Source of the DNA: Desulfuromonadaceae bacterium GWB2_53_15
Lineage (GTDB): Bacteria > Desulfobacterota > Desulfuromonadia > Geobacterales > Pseudopelobacteraceae
DNA length: 18,548 nt
Assembly: GCA_001824455.1 (NCBI GenBank)
Contig: MHXL01000048.1
Coordinates: 1,856 to 20,403 of the forward strand
Reading direction: 5' to 3'
The position numbers and the translations under genes are program-made. Below are positions 1,801 to 15,132 of this stretch, piece by piece; the first letter of the stretch is position 1, and the number at the start of each line of letters is the position of its first letter. The notes below the pieces were generated by a model. That model was not told the DNA's origin. It made no database searches and was given only the letters and a program-made list of their open reading frames with translations.

Positions 1801-2915
1801 GGTCATCCAGATTTTGCATGGCGCTGGGCCTGATGGCAACGCTGTCCGTTGCCGGTTGTTCCGCGAAGCAGCACGAAGCGGGGAAAAAACCGGGCACAGC
1901 GGCAACTGTCGTCAAAGGGACAACAATAGAAACCGTCAAATCCGCCGCCATAGCAGAGACGCTGGAGGTGGTCGGCACGGTTCAGGCGCGGACCAGCGCC
2001 GTAGTTTCAACCCGCATCCCCGGCACCGTCAGCGTGCTGCGTGTGCGCGAAGGAGACCGGGTCAAGAAGGGGCAACTGCTGGCCCAGCTGGATGCGCAGG
2101 AGAACCAGGCCACAGCTGCCGTGGCCTTCGCCGGCATTGACGAGGCCAGACACGGCCTGGATGAGGCGCTTTCCCGTAAAAAACTGGCCGACACCACCTT
2201 TGAGCGCTACCACAGGCTCTTCAACGAGCAGGCCGTAACCCGCCAGGAATTCGACACTAGGCAATCCGAAAAGGAACTGGCCGCCCAAGGCGTTGCCCGG
2301 GCCGAGGCCCGCCTGAAACAGGCCCAGGAGGGATCACGGGCGGCCACGACCATGTCTGACTATACCCGGATCGTCGCCCCCATCTCCGGGATCATCACCA
2401 GCAAACAGGTTGATCTGGGGGCAACCGTCTTCCCGGCCCAGCCACTGATGACCATCGAGGACGAGGGTAGCTACCAGCTGGAACTGGCCGTGCCGGAGTC
2501 ACAGGCAACCAGAATCAAGGCGGGAACAGCGGTCCTGGTCACACTGGACGCCCTGGATGCATCCTTCAGAGCAAATATTGCCGAGATCGTCCCCACTGCC
2601 GACCCTGCCAGCCGCACCTTCCTCGCCAAGATCAAGCTGACCCAAAAAGGGCTTAAATCCGGCATGTTCGGACGAGGCGCGCTGAATCTTGGGACAACGG
2701 TCAATGGTATAACCGTGCCGCAAAAATCCGTCGTCGAACGCGGGGCGCTGACCTCGCTCTGGGTGCTGGATAAAGACAGCATCGCCCGCATGCGCTTGGT
2801 CAAGACCGGCAAAACCGTTGGCGAACGGGTGGAGATCCTCTCCGGCCTGTCGGATGGCGAGAAGGTTGTTGTCGGCGGCGTGGAAAAGGTCAGCGAAGGG
2901 GCGAAGGTGGAATAA
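1797..2915 (+). CDS. RND efflux periplasmic adaptor (membrane-fusion) lipoprotein
   Basis: This is a 372-residue HlyD/AcrA-type adaptor that should bridge the inner-membrane RND pump and the TolC-like channel. The N-terminus is a lipoprotein signal with lipobox VAGC and the lipidated cysteine at residue 21. A biotinyl-lipoyl-like half motif, EGDRVKKGQLLAQLD, occupies residues 85-99. It is followed by an alpha-helical hairpin of about 80 residues (roughly 100-180), the second lipoyl half beginning near YTRIVAPISGIITSKQVDLG, and beta-barrel and membrane-proximal domains to the end. The order is that of the RND adaptor family. The ATG overlaps the upstream stop by four bases, so the two proteins are translationally coupled. 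The gap to the pump gene is filled by an inverted repeat. Confidence 0.9.
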   Translation: MRSSRFCMALGLMATLSVAGCSAKQHEAGKKPGTAATVVKGTTIETVKSAAIAETLEVVGTVQARTSAVVSTRIPGTVSVLRVREGDRVKKGQLLAQLDAQENQATAAVAFAGIDEARHGLDEALSRKKLADTTFERYHRLFNEQAVTRQEFDTRQSEKELAAQGVARAEARLKQAQEGSRAATTMSDYTRIVAPISGIITSKQVDLGATVFPAQPLMTIEDEGSYQLELAVPESQATRIKAGTAVLVTLDALDASFRANIAEIVPTADPASRTFLAKIKLTQKGLKSGMFGRGALNLGTTVNGITVPQKSVVERGALTSLWVLDKDSIARMRLVKTGKTVGERVEILSGLSDGEKVVVGGVEKVSEGAKVE

Positions 2916-2925
2916 CATCAAAATC

Positions 2926-3065
2926 CACCACGGAGACACTGGGCCACAGAGAAAGTCTAAGTATAATACTTGGTTACGGTGTGTTTGATTGCAATTAGTT
3001 TTTACTTGTTGTCCACAGTTATGCGATTTTAAAGTTTTTCTCAGTGCCTCTGTGTCTCTGTGGTG
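2926..3065. repeat. Imperfect inverted-repeat element (family A) between adaptor and pump genes
   Basis: The left arm at 2926-2954 begins CACCACGGAGACAC. The right arm at 3037-3065, reverse-complemented, begins CACCACAGAGACAC. The arms match at 24 of 29 positions and enclose about 80 bases. The motif resembles the 'CACAGAGACACAGAG' type of dispersed intergenic repeat that I have seen in Geobacter-like genomes; this is recollection, not a search. The spacer includes a 13-bp palindrome, AAGTATAATACTT, at 2959-2971, which contains a TATAAT hexamer without an obvious -35. The right arm ends only 15 bases before the pump start codon, so RNA folding could affect pump translation. Confidence 0.75.
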
Positions 3066-3079
3066 AAAGGTTTTTTAAA

Positions 3080-6000
3080 ATGCTGCATCTCGGTTTTGCC
3101 GGCAAAATCGCCCGCGCCTTTATCAACTCAAAACTGACCCCGCTGATCGTAGTGGCCTCGCTCCTGCTCGGTCTTTTCGCCATAAAAATGACCCCGCGTG
3201 AGGAAGAACCACAGATCGTGGTGCCGATGGTTGACATCTATCTGCCCATGCCCGGCTCGTCACCTCTGGAGGTGCAGGAACGGGTGGTCAAACCCTTCGA
3301 AGGGAAGCTGTGGGAGATCAAGGGGGTCGAGTACCTGTATTCCATGAGCCGCCCCGGCATGGGCATCATCACCGTGCGTTTTCTGGTGGGACAGCCGCTG
3401 GAGGAGTCGCTGGTCAAGCTCTACAACAAGGTCATGAGCAACCGCAACGTGCTCCCTCCCGGTGCGGGCGAACCGCTGGTAGTGCCCAAGTCCATTGATG
3501 ATGTGCCGATCCTGGCCCTGACCCTCTGGTCGGAGCGCTATGATCACGGCACCTTGCGAAATGTAGCTCGCGAGGTCTGTGACGAATTGAGAAAGAGCGA
3601 AAATGCCGCCGAAACGGAGATCAAGGGGGGATTCTCCCGACAACTGCGGGTGACCTTGGACGCTCCGCGTCTTGCCGGCTACGGCCTTTCAGTGCTGCAG
3701 GTGGCAGGCGCCCTGCAGAAGGGGAACACATCCCTGCCCTCTGGCAGCTTCTCCAGTGGCAACAAGGAGATGCTGGTGGAGACCGGTGGGTTTCTGGACA
3801 ACACCGAGGCGGTCAAGCGACTCGTGGTAGGGGTATATGGCAGCAAGCCGGTCTACCTGTCAGACGTGGCCCAGGTCGAGGATAACCTCAAAGAACCCAC
3901 TGATTATGTCTTTTTCGGCCTGGGTCCGGGTGCAGACAAAAAGGGGATCTCGGGCAAGGCCAGCCAGGATTACGCGGCAGTCACCATCTCGGTCGCCAAA
4001 CGCAAAGGTGCCAACGCTACCTGGGTAGCCGAGGATCTGGTCAAAAAGGTGGAGTCGCTCAAAGGGAAAATCATCCCCTCCGACGTGCAGGTCACAATCA
4101 CCCGCAATTATGGCGAAACCGCCAAAGAGAAAAACAATGAGCTGCTGTTCCACATGTTCCTGGCAGCCATCTCGGTCACGATTCTGATCGCGCTCTTCAT
4201 GGGGTGGCGCGCCGGGGCGGTAGCTGCCATCGCCATCCCGGTCACCCTGGCCCTGACCATCCTGATCTTCTACCTGATCGGCTACACCCTCAACCGTATC
4301 ACGCTCTTCGCCCTGATCTTCTCGATCGGCATCCTGGTGGACGACGCCATCGTGGTGGTGGAGAATATCCACCGCTACTTTACCACCACCATCATGGAGC
4401 CCCTGGATGCCGCCATCAAGGCCGTTGACGAGATCGGCAACCCCACGGTGCTGGCCACCTTCGCCGTGATCGCCTCGATCCTGCCAATGGGTTTCGTGGG
4501 CGGCCTGATGGGCCCCTACATGCGGCCGATCCCGGTCGGGGCCAGCATGGCCATGCTCTTTTCCATGCTGATCGCCTTCATCGTCACCCCCTACTTCGCC
4601 TTCCGCTTCATGAAGGGTGAATCGCACCACGGTTCGTCAGAAGGGGTTGCCGACTCCAAGCTGACCGTATTTTACCGCAAGTGGATGGGGCGCCTGATCC
4701 ACGAAAAGCGCCTGCGCTACGGTTTCCTGGGCGGAGTGGTGCTCCTGCTGCTTATATCCTGCTCCTTGATCGGTTTTAAGGCTGTTACGGTCAAGATGTT
4801 GCCCTTTGACAACAAGAACGAGCTGCAACTGATCATTGACGCCCCGGACGGCACGCCGCTGGAACAGACCGCCCGCATGACTCGCGAGATGGGTGACGCC
4901 CTGCGTGGCGTGCCGGAGGTAACCGACTTCCAGATGTACATCGGCACCAGCGCCCCCTTTAACTTCAACGGTCTGGTGCGGCACTATTACCTGCGTAAAG
5001 GGGCCAGCCTGGCCGACATCCAGGTCAACCTGCTGCATAAGGAGGAGCGCCAGGATCAATCCCACGACATTGCCAAGCGCATCCGGCCGCTGGTCAAGAC
5101 CATTGCCGACCGGTATGGCGCTCGGGTCAAGGTGGCCGAGATCCCGCCCGGCCCGCCGGTACTGGCGACCCTGGTGGCCGAGGTCTACGGCCCGGATGAC
5201 AACTCCCGCGCCGGCATTGCCGCCAAGGTCAAGGCGATTCTGGCCAAGACAGCCGGTGTGGTGGATGTGGACTGGTACCGCGAGGATAACCAGGCCAAGC
5301 TGACCTTTGCTGTAGACCGGGAAAAGGCAGCCCTCTCCGGCATCGCCGTGGAGGATGTGGCCAGAACCCTGGCCATCGCCCTTCATGGTCAGGATACCGG
5401 CCTGTTGCACCTGCCCAGGGAGAAGGAGCCGGTGGCCATCAACCTGCGCCTGCCCGCAGCCCAGCGCAGTTCTGCCGCTAGCCTGTCTTCAATCCAGGTT
5501 GCCGGGCCTCGGGGGAATGTGCCGCTCTCGCAGCTGGTGCGCGTCAGCACCGCCAACGAGGAGAAGACCCTCTACCGCAAGAACCTTAAGAATGTGGTCT
5601 ACGTGACCGCAGACGTGGCCGGGCAGATTGAGGCACCGGTCTACGCCATCCTGAAGATGCAGGAGGAGATCAGCGCCCTGCCGACCCCTGACGGCCACAA
5701 GATCGAAGTACTGGCATCCCGCCAACCCTGGAGTGAAGAGCACATCGGCATGAAGTGGGATGGCGAATGGCACATCACCTACGAGGTCTTCCGCGATCTC
5801 GGGATTGCTTTTGTCGCGGTGATGGTGCTGATCTATGTTTTGGTAGTGGCCTGGTTCAAGGACTTTACCACCCCCTTGGTGATCATGGCCCCTATCCCGC
5901 TGACCCTGATCGGCATCCTGCCGGGCCACGCCGCTTTTGGGGCCTTCTTTACCGCCACCAGCATGATTGGCTTCATCGCCCTGGCCGGGATTATCGTGCG

Positions 6001-6990: not shown

Positions 6991-7010
6991 AGGAAACAGG
7001 AGAAACACAC

Positions 7011-7235
7011 ATGAAAGAAGAATTCTACATCGAGCGGATTGTCCGCATCGTGGCCGGGTCATTCGTCATCATCTCGCTGCTTCTGGCCCACTTCCACAGC
7101 CCAAACTGGCTCTGGTTCACCGGCTTCGTGGGACTGAACCTGTTCCAGTCCGGTTTTACCCAATTCTGCCCGATGTTCAACATCCTGGAAAAAATGGGGG
7201 TGCCGAGATTTCCTAAAAATTGCTGCGGCAAATAG
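7011..7235 (+). CDS. YgaP-like (DUF2892) inner-membrane protein
   Basis: A 74-residue membrane protein with two predicted hydrophobic helices (about residues 10-27 and 31-48), joined by a short HSPNW turn, and a short cytoplasmic tail containing [13 protein letters not shown]. The [12 protein letters not shown] opening and the [15 protein letters not shown] segment are the signature of the DUF2892/YgaP transmembrane module. In E. coli YgaP this module is fused behind a rhodanese domain and the protein handles persulfide or thiocyanate. Here it stands alone, and a separate exported rhodanese is encoded at 13829-14206. The ATG follows GGAG at 6999-7002 with an 8-base spacer. The tail also ends in a Cys-Cys pair (NCCGK). 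Confidence 0.88.
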
Positions 7236-7245
7236 TCGGCCAGCC

Positions 7246-7273
7246 CGGCAGGCCCCTGGCCTGCCGAGTTTTT
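7246..7273 (+). terminator. Intrinsic terminator after the YgaP-like gene
   Basis: CGGCAGGCC (7246-7254) and GGCCTGCCG (7258-7266) form a perfect 9-bp GC-rich stem with a CCT loop, followed after AG by five T residues (7269-7273). It begins 11 bases after the stop codon. It marks the end of the efflux transcription unit and the left edge of the accessory insert. Confidence 0.85.
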
Positions 7274-7439
7274 ATACTCCCGCCCACCATACCCGCATGA
7301 GCTGACTACCTCTCTGAGAAAACTCCGGTGTTAGCTGGCTGCGCCAGCACTCACTATTACACTGTTTTGATATCGCAATGATTGTTGGAATCTGCTAAAA
7401 AGTAGTGAACTTCGGCCCACCGGAATGCAGGATTGTTTT

Positions 7440-7455
7440 GCATGGTTTGCCATGC
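7440..7455. promoter_or_regulatory. Short palindrome upstream of the nuclease-STAND gene, possible operator
   Basis: GCATGGTTTGCCATGC is a perfect 6-bp inverted repeat around TTTG, 69 bases before the ATG at 7524. Its size and place fit an operator or a small hairpin in the leader. I see no convincing -35/-10 pair in this gap, and the regulator is unknown. Confidence 0.3.
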
Positions 7456-7523
7456 GGGTAGCGGCAGAGGCAGCGAGGGGATAGAGTAAAAGTATTTCAG
7501 TCGAGGCAAAGGTGTGTAGCAAA

Positions 7524-10500
7524 ATGTCCTCATCAGGTGCAAAAGCAGCTCTTGAAGGTTACCGCAAACAAGCCCTTTACACGCTTGCCTGCATCCTTCA
7601 TCAGGATGGACAGAACCTGATTTTTCAACCTGAAGGCACCGAGGATTTGGCGGTGTTTCGTGGGCAACACCTGCTTCGCACCATACAGGTTAAAGCCTAT
7701 TCCGGCAATCTGACGCTCTCCAGCTTTACACCGGAAAAACCGAGATCCTTCTTTCACAGGGTAACGGATCATGCAGCAGACGATGACCTTGAAATCGAAG
7801 TGGTCAGTTTTGGGCAAATCGGCGCGGAAATAGAAGGCGCTTGGTCAGGCGACGAACAACACTGCGCATCAGTCAGAACAAAGCTTCTTGGTCACAAGTT
7901 TAGCGATGCACAGATAGACACCATATTCAACCGGTTACAATGGAAAAAGGTCGATGAGGAATCGCTGCAAAGACAGTTTTTTGATTTCTTACGTGATTCA
8001 GCAGCCGGAGGTGACCCGGAAACCGCCTTCGATCTGCTTACTATCTGGATATATTTTGCTGCTGAGAAGAAACAGAGGATTATCTATTCCGAACTGATTG
8101 CCAAGATCAACGCCATTGGCACATACAACGCCGAACGCTCCGCTCGTCATCAGGAATGGGGCAATTCGATCATCCCCATTGAAGATACACCGGTTGATTC
8201 AAGTCGAAATGAGCAACTCGCCAAAGAATTCTACAACGGTATATCTACGCGCTATTCCCACATTCTTGCCGGATTCGATGTTCCTCGCCATGACAGACTG
8301 AATGCAATTGAGCAAGCCTTTGCCTCCGATGCACATACGGTTATTATTCACGGTGCGTCCGGCCAGGGCAAAACAACCCTTGCCTTGCGCTTCCTGCATG
8401 ACTACGTGCCGGAACATTGGCGCTACTCGATTCGCTACATGCAAGACAAAAACCAGATAGCTCGCGTTGCCAATGCGCTGGCCGGGCAATTGCGTGTCGT
8501 CAATGCCCCTTTGTATCTGCATCTTGATGTATCGCCACGTGACCATGAGTGGCCGGAGCTAGTCAAAAACCTGCTCGATGAGAAGAATATCCGCATTCTT
8601 ATTACCATCCGGGAAGAAGATCTAGCCAGGAATACAGTTTCCGATACCGAACTTGATTTCCCCAAAACTATACCCCTCGTTTTCAATGAGAGCGAAGCAC
8701 GTACTATCTATGGACGGTTGTTGGAACAAGGTGTAACCGCGTCGTTCCCTTCATTCGACGATGCCTGGGTTCGTTTTGGAGGCGATGGTCCGCTACTGGA
8801 GTTTGTCTATTTCATCACACAAGCTGAATCTCTGAAAAATCGCCTCCACAACCAAGTGCTTCGGCTGCGAGAAGAAGTGAGGACCAATAAGCTTTTTCCC
8901 GAGGAGTTTGCATTTATGCGGGTCTGTTCGGTGGCAAGCGCCTTTGAAGCCAGGATTGATGCGGCTTCGCTTGCCGCAGAACTGAAACTGAAAGATCCCG
9001 TTCGCACTCTTCAACTTCTCGATGAGGAATATTTGCTCCGCTCCTCCCACGATAGGCGACATGTTGAAGCATTGCACCCCATTCGCTCGGAAATACTTGC
9101 CCATGAATTGACCGACCCAGTATTCGAGCCATGGCGTGAAGCAGCACAACTGGCTATCTATCATATGCCGGAACCTGACCTCGAAGCATTTCTGTTGTAT
9201 GCATTTGCCCGGCGACCGGAAGACGTCGAGTTTCTTGTTGCGGCCATTTACCGGTATTGCCCCAAAACGTGGTCAGGTGTAGCAGCCATTATGCGCGCCT
9301 TGATCTGGCTTGGCGTGAAAGAGTATGTGGATGCAAACATGCCGCTGATTGTTGAAGCGCGGACATTGTTTACCCAGGCATGGTACATGGCGCTGAAATT
9401 CGATATCAGCGGCATTTCTTCTGATGGTGATGCCGGACTTCTTGGTGCGTTTAAGCTGCTTGAATTTTCTGCAGTCGATACAGTAGAAAACCTGCGTTTG
9501 AAACAAACGGACAGGCACACCGTTTTTATCAGATTAACCGCATGGATAAATGACAGCGACAGCAAACCGCACGCCCCGCAAACTGTCTCGGACTGGTCTG
9601 GCTTCGCTGAGGCGCATTTCTGGATTCGGCATCTTAAACTTGAAACAACAATGACCGATTCCGTGGCGTTATTGGACTTGTCTTGGCCTTTGGAACAGCT
9701 CTCGTTCAGAGGCTTTGGCGAGGTTCTCCTCAGCCTGTCGTACGCCCCCGAAGCTGTCTACCAAAAGGTCATTAAGCCTCTTCAACGCCATATCATGGAA
9801 CGTTTCTGCGCAGAAACCAAAACGATTGCAATTGAAGAAACCAACGAAATGGTTTGTGCTCATTATCTGGTTCCCATGGAGTCGCCCGAGAACAGCACGG
9901 ATAAGAAGAACCAAAACCAGACGGGAGATCGACTGGAGACAGAAGCCATCAAGCTGTTAGGCCTGTTGCGCATGTATGCTCCTGATCGAAAGGCATATGG
10001 TGTGCAAGGATACGGGCATAATTTGCGCTTTATTCCAATGCCGTTTGATCGGACTGCAAAAGGGCCGGTGGAGTCGAGATATTTGCCCCCGGAATGGCCA
10101 GTCAAAATTAACGCTATTTTCCGCAACCTGGGTGACCTCCATTTTCGTAGCGCCACATGGCAGGAATACGCAGAAGCAACGGTTGAGATTCGAGAGCAGG
10201 TTATTATGGCACTCAACGCCCTTGTAAAAGCCTTGACCGCCTATTTTGCAGGGAACAGGGCCGAAATACTGTCTAGAAAACTGCCGCAGGAGTTATGGAG
10301 TGAGAGTAACAAGGCGGTTAACCAGAATTTGAGTCTGCCGAGAATAGCTGTCGATGAATGGGGATTGGTCGGAGAAGGCGGTGGTACCTCTGAAAATGAA
10401 TCCGCCGTGAAGACCCGAAAAGACCAGTCCATAGCTCTTGTGCTCCAGGCGTATCAACCGTATTTGAAAACAAAAAATGAATATTTTTCTTCGCTGGGGA

Positions 10501-11693
10501 ATTATTTTAATCAGTCTGCACAGTCTCTGATAATCAACAGCGCCATTGGTCGGATGAAGACAAATTATGAACGTGAGCAATACCTGAGACGGGTTTCTGA
10601 GCTTGGTTACAAACCCAACACGGATCGACTGAGCTTGCATAATCTGGGTGACGCATTAAAAGCGCTTGCCGGATTTCAACAAACCTTTCACGAGCTGTTA
10701 TCCGTATTCATTGCTACTGAACGCCTCCATAAACTGGAAAGTAGAGAGAGGAATGTTTTCACTACGGCCTGGGCCTTATGGTATCAATTTGTATATCATC
10801 CCGAAAACAAATGGGATTCCGCCGATGTGCGTGCTGTTGCGGCGTTTGATCGGGCTCAGAGTAAAATGATGGACAACATAAAACGTCGGCTGAACACATT
10901 GCCCGATTCTGGATGGAGCGGTTCGATCATCAGTGAAGCAGCACTCTGGGAAGGGTGGCCAAGTCTCTGGTTTCGTCTTGATGCAGAAAATTCACTGGCG
11001 ATTATTGAGGCTTATCAAAAGCTCGTACAGATGCTTGAAGAAGCGTTTGCACCGATGGATATCAGGACGCTGAAACATTATGTTCTTGATCTCAAATGGC
11101 CGCACATATTGATTGTCCCGTTCGTTGCCGGAGAGTATTTGCAGAATGGAGTCTGGCATCTTTCATCTTGTCTTTTCTGGGGTGGAGAGAAGGTCTTGGA
11201 TCCCGAAAAAACCTGGCTGTTCATGCCGAGAGAAGTTGATTCCGAAGTGTTGCAGCAACTTGGTATAGAATCAGTCGAGCCAATAACTCCGGGGAAAATA
11301 CAGCTACTGCAGCAGGCTGCTTCAGAGCTGTTAGTGTATGTTGATCACTTGGCGGACTTACGTAAAACGCCTGATAACCTTGATGAAATCGGTATGGCGA
11401 TTCTCCAGAAACATGTTGTTTTAAAGGCGCAAGAGGCCTCAGAGGCGTTAACCCGGCTGATAGAACAGATGCAGGTATTGCTGGACGAAGTCAACGCTGG
11501 TGTTTTTGATTCATCGCCGCATGCCGATGAAATCCGGGTGCTCTTGGTAAACATCTGGAAATGTGTTATGCCAGATGGCAATACTGAAAATACCTATGAA
11601 ATCAAGCTTTCAGATTGTGATCAATGGGCGGAAAAATTGCTGGAAGGGCTTGGGCATATGACAATGCTGAATCATTTTTATCTGCATTTTTAG
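7524..11693 (+). CDS. Avs-like nuclease-STAND NTPase (candidate anti-phage defence protein)
   Basis: This is a 1389-residue multidomain protein. The first 100 or so residues look like a PD-(D/E)xK nuclease of the DUF4297/Cap4 type: GYRKQALYTLACIL helix, then Glu40-Asp41 and Gln55-Val-Lys57 in TIQVKAYSGNLTLSSF. A linker to about 250 is followed by a P-loop NTPase with Walker A GASGQGKT (277-284), a probable Walker B LYLHLD ending at Asp335 and the STAND-like TIREED at 361-366. A winged-helix-like segment follows at about 460-525. The remaining 850 residues are helical, without a family I can name, and would be the sensor in known Avs proteins. The ATG at 7524 is preceded by AAAGG (7508-7512); an in-frame GTG at 7512 is less well placed. 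Codon use is visibly more AT-rich than in the flanking operons. The function is inferred from architecture only. Confidence 0.75.
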   Translation: MSSSGAKAALEGYRKQALYTLACILHQDGQNLIFQPEGTEDLAVFRGQHLLRTIQVKAYSGNLTLSSFTPEKPRSFFHRVTDHAADDDLEIEVVSFGQIGAEIEGAWSGDEQHCASVRTKLLGHKFSDAQIDTIFNRLQWKKVDEESLQRQFFDFLRDSAAGGDPETAFDLLTIWIYFAAEKKQRIIYSELIAKINAIGTYNAERSARHQEWGNSIIPIEDTPVDSSRNEQLAKEFYNGISTRYSHILAGFDVPRHDRLNAIEQAFASDAHTVIIHGASGQGKTTLALRFLHDYVPEHWRYSIRYMQDKNQIARVANALAGQLRVVNAPLYLHLDVSPRDHEWPELVKNLLDEKNIRILITIREEDLARNTVSDTELDFPKTIPLVFNESEARTIYGRLLEQGVTASFPSFDDAWVRFGGDGPLLEFVYFITQAESLKNRLHNQVLRLREEVRTNKLFPEEFAFMRVCSVASAFEARIDAASLAAELKLKDPVRTLQLLDEEYLLRSSHDRRHVEALHPIRSEILAHELTDPVFEPWREAAQLAIYHMPEPDLEAFLLYAFARRPEDVEFLVAAIYRYCPKTWSGVAAIMRALIWLGVKEYVDANMPLIVEARTLFTQAWYMALKFDISGISSDGDAGLLGAFKLLEFSAVDTVENLRLKQTDRHTVFIRLTAWINDSDSKPHAPQTVSDWSGFAEAHFWIRHLKLETTMTDSVALLDLSWPLEQLSFRGFGEVLLSLSYAPEAVYQKVIKPLQRHIMERFCAETKTIAIEETNEMVCAHYLVPMESPENSTDKKNQNQTGDRLETEAIKLLGLLRMYAPDRKAYGVQGYGHNLRFIPMPFDRTAKGPVESRYLPPEWPVKINAIFRNLGDLHFRSATWQEYAEATVEIREQVIMALNALVKALTAYFAGNRAEILSRKLPQELWSESNKAVNQNLSLPRIAVDEWGLVGEGGGTSENESAVKTRKDQSIALVLQAYQPYLKTKNEYFSSLGNYFNQSAQSLIINSAIGRMKTNYEREQYLRRVSELGYKPNTDRLSLHNLGDALKALAGFQQTFHELLSVFIATERLHKLESRERNVFTTAWALWYQFVYHPENKWDSADVRAVAAFDRAQSKMMDNIKRRLNTLPDSGWSGSIISEAALWEGWPSLWFRLDAENSLAIIEAYQKLVQMLEEAFAPMDIRTLKHYVLDLKWPHILIVPFVAGEYLQNGVWHLSSCLFWGGEKVLDPEKTWLFMPREVDSEVLQQLGIESVEPITPGKIQLLQQAASELLVYVDHLADLRKTPDNLDEIGMAILQKHVVLKAQEASEALTRLIEQMQVLLDEVNAGVFDSSPHADEIRVLLVNIWKCVMPDGNTENTYEIKLSDCDQWAEKLLEGLGHMTMLNHFYLHF

Positions 11694-11837
11694 TAGTTGA
11701 TGGAATATCCTAGTACGATATCCGTCGATGGTTCGAAGCTGAGCTGAAATAAATCCCACTTTGAGAAACATGCAGTAAGGTCTGTCGAATTACAATTTCC
11801 AATGCGACATTAGACAATGATGTAACGAGGCTATACA

Positions 11838-12866
11838 ATGAGCAACAAATCGCCAATACAGAACAACAGCCAGTTTCTTGTCTATCAAACCGAGGATGGA
11901 AAACTGAAAATTGATGTGCGATTCGAGGGTGAGACCGTCTGGTTGTCGCTCAACCAGCTTGCCGAGCTATTCCAGCGGGACAAGTCGGTCATCTCCCGAC
12001 ATATCAAAAATGTCTTTGATGAAGGAGAATTGCTCCCGGAAGGAACTGTTGCAAAATCTGCAACAGTTCAAATAGAGGGGAATAAGCAGGTTACCCGCGA
12101 GATAGAGTTTTTCAACCTCGATATGATCATCTCGGTCGGCTACCGCGTGAAAAGCACTGTTGCCACCCGTTTCCGAATATGGGCCACTCAGCGATTGCGG
12201 GAATACATCGTCAAAGGGTTTGCCCTTGATGACGAACGCCTGAAAAACCCAGACCTGCCCTTCGACTATTTTGAGGAACTGACGCGCCGGATTCAGGATA
12301 TCCGCACTTCCGAGCGACGATTCTACCAGAAAATCACGGACATCTACGCCACCAGCATAGACTATGATCCCACGCAGGAGATCAGTATCGGGTTCTTCAA
12401 AACTGTTCAGAACAAGGTCCATTGGGCTATTACCGGACAGACCGCAGCAGAGATTATCCACGACCGGGTAAACGCCACCAAGCCCAACCTGGGGCTGACT
12501 AACTGGCGCGGTGCAGTGATTCGAAAGCAGGATGTGACCATTGCCAAAAACTACCTCACCGAGCCGGAGCTGGCTGCACTCAATAATCTTGTGGAGCAAT
12601 ACCTTGTCTTCGCCGAAGGTCAGGCCATGCGCCGTGTGCCTATGTACATGGCGGACTGGGTCAATAAACTGGATGCCTTCCTTACGCTCAACGACCGTGA
12701 CATTCTCACCCACGCGGGACGTATTTCCCACGAAATGGCGCAGTCCAAGGCCGATCTGGAATATTGCAAGTATAAGACACTGACAGCCACAGACGTTCGC
12801 CCTGTGGACAAAGACTTTGAGCAGGCTGCGCGGGCTCTGCCTAAAGCGCCTCGCACGAAAAGTTAG
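11838..12866 (+). CDS. RhuM family protein (COG3943-type, putative DNA-binding)
   Basis: This 342-residue protein matches the virulence RhuM family, first named from Salmonella SPI-3. Recognisable segments are VWLSLNQLAELFQRDKSVISRHIKNVFDEGEL (about residues 35-66, helix-turn-helix-like), FFNLDMIISVGYRVKSTVATRFRIWATQRLREYIVKGF (about 92-129), and the C-terminal LTNWRGAV...YLTEPELAALNNLVEQYLVFAE region. The length is normal for the family. The biochemical role is unknown; such genes are common beside restriction-modification and other defence loci. The ATG follows GAGG at 11827-11830 with a 7-base spacer. It starts 144 bases after the nuclease-STAND stop on the same strand, so it may be a partner, a regulator or only a co-resident of the same island. 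TACAAT at 11791-11796 could be a -10 element, but its -35 is not clear. Confidence 0.85.
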   Translation: MSNKSPIQNNSQFLVYQTEDGKLKIDVRFEGETVWLSLNQLAELFQRDKSVISRHIKNVFDEGELLPEGTVAKSATVQIEGNKQVTREIEFFNLDMIISVGYRVKSTVATRFRIWATQRLREYIVKGFALDDERLKNPDLPFDYFEELTRRIQDIRTSERRFYQKITDIYATSIDYDPTQEISIGFFKTVQNKVHWAITGQTAAEIIHDRVNATKPNLGLTNWRGAVIRKQDVTIAKNYLTEPELAALNNLVEQYLVFAEGQAMRRVPMYMADWVNKLDAFLTLNDRDILTHAGRISHEMAQSKADLEYCKYKTLTATDVRPVDKDFEQAARALPKAPRTKS

Positions 12867-12983
12867 CGTGGCGGAGCGCCAGTCAGGTAGGTCGCATTCA
12901 TCGACGGTCTGAAAATTTCCCACAGGGTGTAATAATTGGTTCGGTAATACAGAACGTAACTAATCTTACGAGGTATAAATCAA

Positions 12984-13817
12984 ATGAACTACCGCCTAAC
13001 CGTCCTGTGCGAGAACAGTGTCGGCCCCATCTCCGGTACGCTGGGGGAGCATGGTTTTTCTGTGCTTATAGTGCCAAGCGAAGGTGCACCGCTCCTGTTC
13101 GATACCGGCCAGGGACTGACCCTGCTGCACAATGCCCGCCGGATGAACAAGGATCTCTCCAGGGTGCAGAAGGTGATCCTCTCCCACGGCCATTATGACC
13201 ACGCCGGCGGACTGCTGCCGCTGCTTAGGGAGTGCGGCCCCAAGCAGGTCTACGGCCACCCCGGAATCTTCAAGCCGCGAAACAGGATCAAGGACACGGG
13301 TGAATGTTATCCGATCGGCATACCCGCCAGCCGGGCAGAACTGGAGGCGGCAGGCGCAACCTTCGATCTTTCGAAGGATTTCCGTGAGATCGCACCGGGC
13401 ATATACCTGACCGGCGAAGTACCGCGGGTGACCGATTTTGAAACTGGCGATCAAGGGTTGTACTGCGATTGCACCGGCCAGGAATTGGACATAACGCCCG
13501 ATGACCAGTCGCTGGTGCTGGAGACGGATAAAGGCTTGGTGGTCATCCTGGGGTGCTGCCATGCGGGATTGGTAAATACATTGGAGCATGTAGCTTATAT
13601 GACCGGCAGACGGGATATTTTTGCCGTGATAGGCGGCACACACCTCGGATTTTGCAGTCAGGAGCAGATCGAGAAGACTGTGGCCGCTATTCGGGCACTG
13701 GGGGTAACAAAACTGGCTGCCGGTCACTGCACCGGCTTTGCCGCTTCGGCCCGCTTGTCACGGGAGTTGCCGAGAGAGTTTCAGGTTGCCCTGGTTGGGT
13801 ACACATTAGAGCTATAA
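12984..13817 (+). CDS. Metallo-beta-lactamase-fold hydrolase, DHPS-like family
   Basis: A 277-residue soluble protein with the MBL metal site HGHYDH (residues 68-73), preceded by LLFDTGQG and followed by the later metal ligands in LGCCHAGLVNT, GGTHLGF and AGHCTGF. The pattern fits the group annotated from archaeal MJ0301 as 7,8-dihydropterin-6-methyl-4-(ribofuranosyl)-aminobenzene-phosphate synthase-like; that activity should not be assumed here. There is no signal peptide, so it is cytoplasmic. The ATG is 10 bases after GAGG at 12970-12973. Its TAA overlaps the ribosome binding site of the rhodanese gene, so the two form an operon. Cooperation with rhodanese recalls persulfide dioxygenases, but the sequence lacks a clear ETHE1-type layout. 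Confidence 0.87.
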   Translation: MNYRLTVLCENSVGPISGTLGEHGFSVLIVPSEGAPLLFDTGQGLTLLHNARRMNKDLSRVQKVILSHGHYDHAGGLLPLLRECGPKQVYGHPGIFKPRNRIKDTGECYPIGIPASRAELEAAGATFDLSKDFREIAPGIYLTGEVPRVTDFETGDQGLYCDCTGQELDITPDDQSLVLETDKGLVVILGCCHAGLVNTLEHVAYMTGRRDIFAVIGGTHLGFCSQEQIEKTVAAIRALGVTKLAAGHCTGFAASARLSRELPREFQVALVGYTLEL

Positions 13818-14220: not shown

Positions 14221-15132
14221 CTACCAGCCCATATCCAGGGCTAACCGAAAGAAGGGTACATTGTCGATCCCCATACCGGACCGGTTCCCATCATAAAAAT
14301 CGAATCGGCGATCAAAGGCATAACCGATCGCACCAGTCAGCTTGACGGCAGGCTGCGGCAGATATTCAACGCCTCCCATCACCTTGTAATCACGGTATTT
14401 TATAACCTTGGCCCCCAGCGAACGGTCTTTGAGTTCATATTCGTCGCTGGCAAAGTCCCCGCCAACGAAAAAGCTCATTTCGCGTGATGCGTTGTAGATT
14501 ACAGCGGGACGCGGTGCAATTATGGACAGTCGCCATCGTTCGTCAAGCTGATAGGTAATCCCGATGGCTGGTATGATCGTTGAATCATGATTGCCGAACC
14601 GATAAGCGAATCCCCCAACCAGAGTAATGCCGCTATCAAAGGCATAGCCCCCCAATGCCAACACCGGCAGCCGCAGGTCATCGCTGCCGATATCACTAAA
14701 ATCACTATATAATCCCGGATAGACCTTCAAAGTCACAAAGCTTTTATCGTTGATGCCGTAGTGTGCGCCAGCTTCGAGAAAAAGGGCATGCAAGTCCTGT
14801 GGCAGACCGACAGAAGTTGACGCATCAATGTGCTTGAGTCCATAGCCGCCACCAATGGTCAATGTCATTTTGCTGTCAAGTTTATGGTTTTTCACCAGCC
14901 TGAAACGATAATCGCTTATGCCGACTGAAGCAGCTCTGCCTTCAAGATCCGCTGCAGGCAGGATACCGAGCGCCATCTGGCTGTTCCAATCGGAAGTGGG
15001 CTTTAACGGCAATACCCTGTCGCGCTCCACCACATCCGAACTGCCGGCCGCACACAATCCCTGCGGCACGGCAAAGACAGCCAGAACAACAGCAGCCATA
15101 AAACCGCAATGAACCATACGGATTATTTTCAT
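14221..15132 (-). CDS. Exported outer-membrane beta-barrel protein (DUF6268-like)
   Basis: A 303-residue protein with a signal peptide (about residues 1-28, cleavage after LCA). The mature part is a run of amphipathic strands with alternating aromatic and polar residues and short turns, such as MTLTIGGGYGL, SFVTLKVYPGLYSDF and GITLVGGFAYRFG. It ends in an outer-membrane type C-terminal strand, FRLALDMGW, with a terminal aromatic residue. This resembles the DUF6268 group of outer-membrane barrels; the family name is a recollection and the cargo is unknown. The ATG is preceded on the minus strand by a strong AAAGGAGGG at 15138-15146. It converges with the rhodanese gene, only 14 bases separating the two stops, and I see no hairpin terminator there. 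Confidence 0.75.
   Translation of the reverse strand: MKIIRMVHCGFMAAVVLAVFAVPQGLCAAGSSDVVERDRVLPLKPTSDWNSQMALGILPAADLEGRAASVGISDYRFRLVKNHKLDSKMTLTIGGGYGLKHIDASTSVGLPQDLHALFLEAGAHYGINDKSFVTLKVYPGLYSDFSDIGSDDLRLPVLALGGYAFDSGITLVGGFAYRFGNHDSTIIPAIGITYQLDERWRLSIIAPRPAVIYNASREMSFFVGGDFASDEYELKDRSLGAKVIKYRDYKVMGGVEYLPQPAVKLTGAIGYAFDRRFDFYDGNRSGMGIDNVPFFRLALDMGW

Follow-up and report, generated by a model that had tools for sequence, protein, structure and literature searches.

Features of the locus

We analysed an 18,548-nucleotide stretch (the window) of contig MHXL01000048.1 from Desulfuromonadaceae bacterium GWB2_53_15, which holds a gene for a protein of 1389 residues that joins a predicted Cap4-type nuclease, a STAND NTPase and a long putative sensor in one chain (Table 1). 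The reading frame runs uninterrupted from an ATG at 7524 to the stop at 11691–11693, confirming the single frame proposed in the first-pass annotation; the longest open reading frame (ORF) at the locus starts at a GTG at 7512 and has 1393 residues. The motifs named in that annotation (E40-D41, Q55-V-K57, GASGQGKT and TIREED) were all present at the residues given for them. The whole chain was fitted by no single Pfam, PADLOC or NCBIfam model.

Table 1. Positions of the gene, its parts, the surrounding insert and two compared loci. Positions are in the window unless a locus is named; residues are those of the window protein.
Feature	Position	Strand	Description and basis
Cap4-STAND-sensor gene	7524..11693	+	1389 residues; ORF, family matches, alignment
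Cap4/DUF4297-type PD-(D/E)xK nuclease domain, residues 1–204	7524..8135	+	predicted fold
E-D ... Q-V-K active-site motif, residues 40–57	7641..7694	+	invariant in 50/50; D41, Q55, K57 in 43/43
STAND NTPase (PF25199 nSTAND_NTPase5/PF20720 nSTAND3), residues 205–440	8136..8843	+	Pfam, structure
Walker A GASGQGKT, residues 277–284	8352..8375	+	sequence; S279-K283 invariant
TIREED, residues 361–366, end of strand 356–363	8604..8621	+	sequence, model
GGDGPLLE, residues 419–426	8778..8801	+	E426 invariant
Winged-helix-like segment, residues 441–535, with LHPIR at 517–521	8844..9128	+	model; H518, R521 invariant
Putative sensor, residues 536–1389	9129..11690	+	AlphaFold2 model, mostly helical
5747-bp insert with Cap4-STAND-sensor and RhuM genes	7234..12980	.	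missing in relatives compared
CAAAT, left direct repeat copy (5 bp) at insert junction	7229..7233	.	
CAAAT, right direct repeat copy (5 bp) at insert junction	12981..12985	.	
Terminator-like hairpin and T run, left insert end	7246..7266	+	9 pairs, 8 of them G-C
RhuM family gene, second insert gene	11838..12866	+	PF13310, E 1.6e-110; PADLOC PDC-S05
Small DUF2892-like gene (label by eye)	7011-7235		74 codons and stop
MBL gene	12984-13817		
Locus L068, upstream TIR gene	2828-3463		
Locus L068, switch gene	3511-4800		
Locus L030, upstream gene	9454-9891		146 residues
Locus L030, switch gene	9917-13573		

A widespread and conserved family

A protein database search with the window protein gave 289 matches at E <= 1e-3 (7988 candidates scored), which excludes a chance co-occurrence of the motifs. 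Among the 120 matches listed, most were about 1370–1425 residues long and aligned with the window protein over almost their full length. From these 120 we picked 49 relatives and aligned them with the window protein; E40, D41, Q55, K57, S279-K283, D335, R363, E365, D366, E426, H518 and R521 were invariant in all 50 sequences. A second alignment was broader and comprised 43 sequences, the window protein among them; here D41, Q55, K57, S279-K283, R363, D366, E426, H518 and R521 remained invariant and E40 and E365 were conserved at >= 90%. The mean share of the commonest residue was 0.64 in the NTPase, 0.61 in the winged helix and 0.57 in the nuclease; it was lower in the C-terminus, at 0.42–0.48 as far as residue 1255 and 0.38 over the final 134 residues.

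A pattern search of contigs returned 361 matches, of which 105 encode relatives; the 80 kept are labelled Geobacteraceae, Desulfobacteraceae, cyanobacteria, Methylobacter, planctomycetes, flavobacteria, Paenibacillus and Chloroflexi. Two relatives (L019, L053) lie in putative archaeal metagenome-assembled genomes labelled Thorarchaeota and Methanoflexus, and IMG/VR holds one related locus (L083). Closer to the window, four of 141 Geobacterales genomes had a match to the protein, including the window genome itself (an assembly of 1.83 Mb, 52% complete), and the homologue at a Geomonas edaphica locus is 50–51% identical. When a profile of the C-terminus was run against 297 genomes drawn from the phylum, three matched, namely the window genome and two others with weak or partial matches. 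Together, these data indicate that the family is widespread, with hundreds of relatives, mostly bacterial.

Compared with two alleles that are about 84% identical, the window gene had dN/dS ratios of 0.16 and 0.17, values that point to purifying selection. We also observed that divergence at fourfold sites is uneven along 9129-11690 relative to the same two alleles (L003 and L005), being 0.06 at residues 561–630, 0.64–0.73 at residues 981–1050 and 0.57–0.70 at residues 1261–1330, in blocks of 14–36 sites each. This pattern hints at recombination among alleles that may have produced mosaics.

The nuclease and the STAND switch

AlphaFold2 models were made of residues 1–560 and 535–1389, the first with a mean pLDDT of 90.6. 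The N-terminal domain has a predicted Cap4/DUF4297-type PD-(D/E)xK fold in which the D ... (E/Q)xK residues (D41, Q55, K57) are kept, in agreement with the nuclease called in the first-pass annotation. Sequence models recovered it unequally: the LmuA model PDLC03848 matched 32 of the 43 aligned sequences at E <= 1e-3 and the window protein at E 1.5e-7 on residues 3–86, and Pfam PF14130 matched 13 of the 43 at E <= 1e-3 and gave nothing with residues 1–240 of the window protein at E <= 5. The nuclease also matched LmuA folds. A Pfam scan of the window protein gave no SIR2 at E <= 1 and no match to AlbA_2 or a SIR2-like domain; the Cap4-type fold fills residues 1–203.

The STAND NTPase likewise stood up, with an intact Walker A and a PF20720 nSTAND3 score of 28.1 bits against a cut-off of 27.2; the same family matched 33 of the 43 aligned sequences at E <= 1e-3. 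With PF25199 the whole protein scored 32.7 bits, short of the cut-off of 34; residues 220–560 alone reached 35.3 bits. By contrast, the NACHT model PF05729 scored 17.4 bits (cut-off 26.7), compared with 36.8 bits for a true Avs3a. The winged-helix-like segment that had been proposed was seen in the model, where NTPase and winged helix are arranged as in Apaf-1 and NLRs; structural alignments with SAMD9, Apaf-1 and NLRP9 extend to residue 560. We take R363 of TIREED to be the sensor-1-like arginine of STAND nomenclature and GGDGPLLE to be a GxP-like motif, and LHPIR presumably occupies a position like that of the MHD motif. In structure, the switch part came closest to human SAMD9 and Avs5, and for the front half as a whole Foldseek ranked Avs3 (8dgc) first.

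The C-terminal putative sensor

The model of residues 535–1389 (mean pLDDT 86.9, pTM 0.82) consists mainly of helices, with strand-bearing segments near residues 767–850 and 1131–1214. The first-pass annotation could not place the C-terminus in a named subfamily, and our searches bear this out: Pfam found no family at E <= 0.05 in this part of the window protein and none in more than two of the C-termini of 45 sequences, a PDB sequence search gave nothing below E 0.5, and Foldseek with the model as one block found no match in PDB or among the viral structures of BFVD at E <= 1e-3. The fall in conservation toward the C-terminus may reflect a recognition region, and a merely tolerant region would look alike.

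Comparison with known systems

The annotation had also interpreted the protein as a phage-sensing nuclease akin to the antiviral STAND (Avs) proteins. The likeness holds for the anatomy, which as in Avs3 combines a Cap4-type nuclease, a STAND NTPase and a long C-terminal region in a single chain; it does not extend to the Avs2, Avs3 or Avs5 models. With Avs3, the front half aligned (hhalign probability 85.9) and the C-terminus did not (probability 0.1 against the Avs3 sensor). Avs3 is also longer (about 2100 residues), and the window NTPase matches nSTAND5/nSTAND3 models rather than NACHT. At E <= 1e-3 the window genome had no match to the NCBIfam models for Avs3a (NF041816), Avs2 (NF041813) or Avs5 (NF041814), whereas NF041816 scored 2811 bits in another genome of the order. 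No Avs-named NCBIfam model matched at E <= 1, in a library whose coverage of Avs1 and Avs4 is unconfirmed. PADLOC includes Avs models. Two STAND-like proteins of about 1460 residues from two genomes of the order (L084, a DUF4062 protein, and L085) reached 369–462 bits with the Avs2 model, which is short of the cut-off, and were not used as Avs2 references.

The nSTAND3 NTPase is shared with Avs5, for which PF20720 is reported (PMC12931631). Avs5 differs in carrying a SIR2 N-terminus in place of the nuclease, and its model spans 763 positions compared with the 1389 residues here. Likewise, the SAMD9 family has a Walker A of the GGT/S form and AlbA_2 and SIR2-like N-terminal domains that some members have lost (PMC5445408); on that description the window protein differs in its intact GKT with an invariant K283 and in its Cap4-type effector without a detected AlbA_2 or SIR2-like domain. 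Lamassu LmuA and the HerA-DUF4297 nucleases share the nuclease fold and motif, but in the window protein the nuclease is fused to its own STAND switch. An SMC-like LmuB or a HerA partner was not found among the six neighbours scanned (ORFs 454-2915 and 14221-15132 lie outside the scan). The protein thus probably works like an Avs protein, yet by the membership tests run it lies outside Avs2, Avs3 and Avs5.

Effector exchange among relatives

When a cyanobacterial relative that lacks the nuclease served as query, 880 proteins matched (7994 scored, 120 listed). We scored 196 family proteins, the window protein among them (316 fetched less 120 from the Avs3 search), with profiles of two parts; the switch was matched in 196 of 196 and the nuclease end in 169. 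The 27 proteins lacking a nuclease match were sorted by eye. One (P0252) has PF13365, which we take to be a trypsin-like protease domain, fused before the switch at the nuclease's place. In another 15 the switch is preceded by 17–29 residues that belong to either of two types of short motif, seven start directly at the switch and four are apparent fragments.

At two loci the motif could be followed into the gene upstream. The upstream product of L068 has a TIR domain (PF13676, E 2.2e-33) and carries MTQQNFNYGRDQNIIN close to its C-terminus, and the product of the adjacent switch gene, which is interrupted, starts with MTQQNINYGRDQFIIN. At L030, the upstream protein has QTKTGDNNTNFFGGSHNHGK at its C-terminal end and QTGTDNTNFFGGIHFHG lies close to the start of the switch gene. 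A related small gene of 131–133 residues stands directly upstream of nuclease-less switch genes at Microcoleus and Lyngbya loci (L020:9572-9970, L021:9578-9970, L067:9578-9970); the copy scanned, that of L021, had no Pfam match. In bacterial amyloid signalling, an effector carries at its C-terminus a motif that the product of the adjacent NLR gene has at its N-terminus; BELL and less often TIR proteins take part, mainly in actinobacteria and cyanobacteria (PMC7889193). On that description L068 and L030 resemble the BASS amyloid NLR signalosomes, in that the N-terminal motif of the NTPase protein recurs at the C-terminus of the upstream protein, and by analogy the shared motifs of the cyanobacterial relatives may form amyloids. 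The window protein differs from such signalosomes in carrying its effector in cis. The exchange of effectors strongly supports the idea of an effector-switch-sensor receptor.

The insert and its genomic setting

The gene lies with a RhuM gene on an insert that splits the DUF2892-like and MBL genes. In relatives, the DUF2892-like gene runs into the MBL gene, with stop and start overlapping in 10 of 11 junctions by eye, and all 12 fetched sites from relatives aligned on both flanks without the insert. The gap between the RND pump and MBL genes is 222–1337 bp in each of 37 tabulated relatives compared with 6613 bp in the window. This tally omits genomes with the genes on different contigs or with one gene below threshold; it also omits four in which the pump is in pieces (G117, G119, G135 and G137, gaps of about 218–1472 bp by eye) and four in which pump and MBL are far apart on the same contig (G049, G059, G078, G129), so the gene order is not universal.

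The CAAAT copies at the two junctions suggest a short target duplication or microhomology, a sign that is weak alone because CAAAT appears 14 times across the window. No repeat of eight or more bases, direct or inverted, was common to both insert ends over about 110 bases per side. The ORF list shows no insert genes beyond these two and hence no transposase. Content of G and C was 0.45–0.50 in 1-kb windows across 7001-12500 compared with 0.53–0.63 in those between 2001 and 7500. Terminator-like sites as a class are weak, with seven found in the window against 6.4 expected in shuffles, and no Rfam family reached its gathering score in the window. At L129, one of the 12 fetched sites, some 1.1 kb of different DNA occupies this position, which may therefore be a recurrent insertion point.

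The six neighbour genes scanned encode an RND pump, C_GCAxxG_C_C, RhuM, MBL, rhodanese and PEPCK. RhuM was rejected as a general functional partner, since none of 1295 ORFs from relatives matched it by blastp at E <= 1e-5. A conserved neighbour was also rejected; the largest neighbour clusters occur in six loci at varied distance and orientation. Genes of the GajA, LmuB and MkoC types are among the near neighbours of relatives. PADLOC families matched at E <= 1e-20 numbered 153 for near and 48 for far neighbours, a difference given little weight: the scan took 110 ORFs from each group (321 near and 277 far), the near ones being longer (43,201 vs 27,335 residues), did not include the viral contig and five near-duplicate loci, and does not report members per family match. 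Elsewhere in the window genome, a 44-codon match (L002, contig C89 bases 314-445) is 86% identical over residues 1–44 only and was rejected as a second full copy; the gene upstream of this remnant matches the Eco57I methylase model weakly, with 21.6 bits against a cut-off of 25.3.

Discussion

We think it likely that the gene encodes a single-gene, Avs-like STAND defence receptor that acts by abortive infection through its Cap4-type nuclease. The evidence in hand consists of the domain order, the predicted nuclease and NTPase folds, the invariant residues, selection, the inserted locus and the exchange of effectors. At rest, the sensor and the winged helix would keep the ATP-binding module closed. 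Binding of an invader-derived molecule by the sensor, most likely a conserved phage protein, would allow the NTPase to swap its nucleotide and oligomerise, which would cluster the nuclease domains. The clustered nucleases would then cut double-stranded DNA of phage and host indiscriminately, and the resulting death or arrest of the cell would stop the infection.

The same switch and nuclease could instead answer to plasmid or other foreign DNA, a DNA end or a replication intermediate rather than a phage protein. Such triggers are those of Lamassu-type systems, and LmuA provides both the closest sequence model of the nuclease and matching folds; the sensor, moreover, does not align with that of Avs3. 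We consider a DNA trigger unlikely, because the similarity to LmuA stems from the Cap4 domain, for which residues 3–86 suffice, and the six scanned neighbours include no SMC-like LmuB, nor do relatives have a conserved neighbour. It is more improbable still, by a wide measure, that the protein is a diverged true member of Avs3 or Avs5. Avs3 is the top Foldseek match and PF20720, reported for Avs5 in the paper cited above, passes its cut-off, but the window genome matches neither NF041816 nor NF041814, the C-terminus does not align with that of Avs3, the NACHT score stays below the cut-off that a true Avs3a exceeds, and the N-terminus is Cap4-like rather than the SIR2 of Avs5. Least probable of all is a MalT-like regulator of transcription or signalling with an inactive nuclease: the catalytic motif is invariant in the 50 aligned sequences, relatives swap the effector for TIR or protease-like domains, and the locus is inserted.

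Beyond the Avs-like defence receptor that we favour for the window gene, we tentatively raise the possibility, while leaning somewhat against it, that the family forms a separate class of prokaryotic receptor. It would combine an ancient switch-sensor core, present in many phyla and in archaea, with a sensor that resembles no solved structure and reads a conserved feature of invaders, and with exchangeable killers, either Cap4 or trypsin-like in cis or TIR/BELL-like in trans through amyloid motifs, and its NTPase would be a bacterial relative of the human SAMD9 core with a working P-loop. In titles and abstract openings, a scope that leaves most subscription papers outside, no Cap4-nSTAND5 receptor was described and PF25199 was not mentioned in the papers searched; with that scope, the negative is weak evidence of novelty. 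New here are the 5.75-kb insert with the gene and RhuM, which is missing in the 37 tabulated relatives, and the cyanobacterial relatives that keep switch and sensor and swap the nuclease for a protease-like domain or a shared short motif.

If the reading as a defence receptor is true, a widespread receptor family would be added to the repertoire of Avs proteins and bacterial NLRs. Its unassigned sensor is an obvious target for trigger screens, and one set of homologues shows effectors in cis beside effectors possibly recruited in trans by a shared short motif. Bacterial and with its P-loop intact, the protein also offers a system in which to study the SAMD9-type switch.

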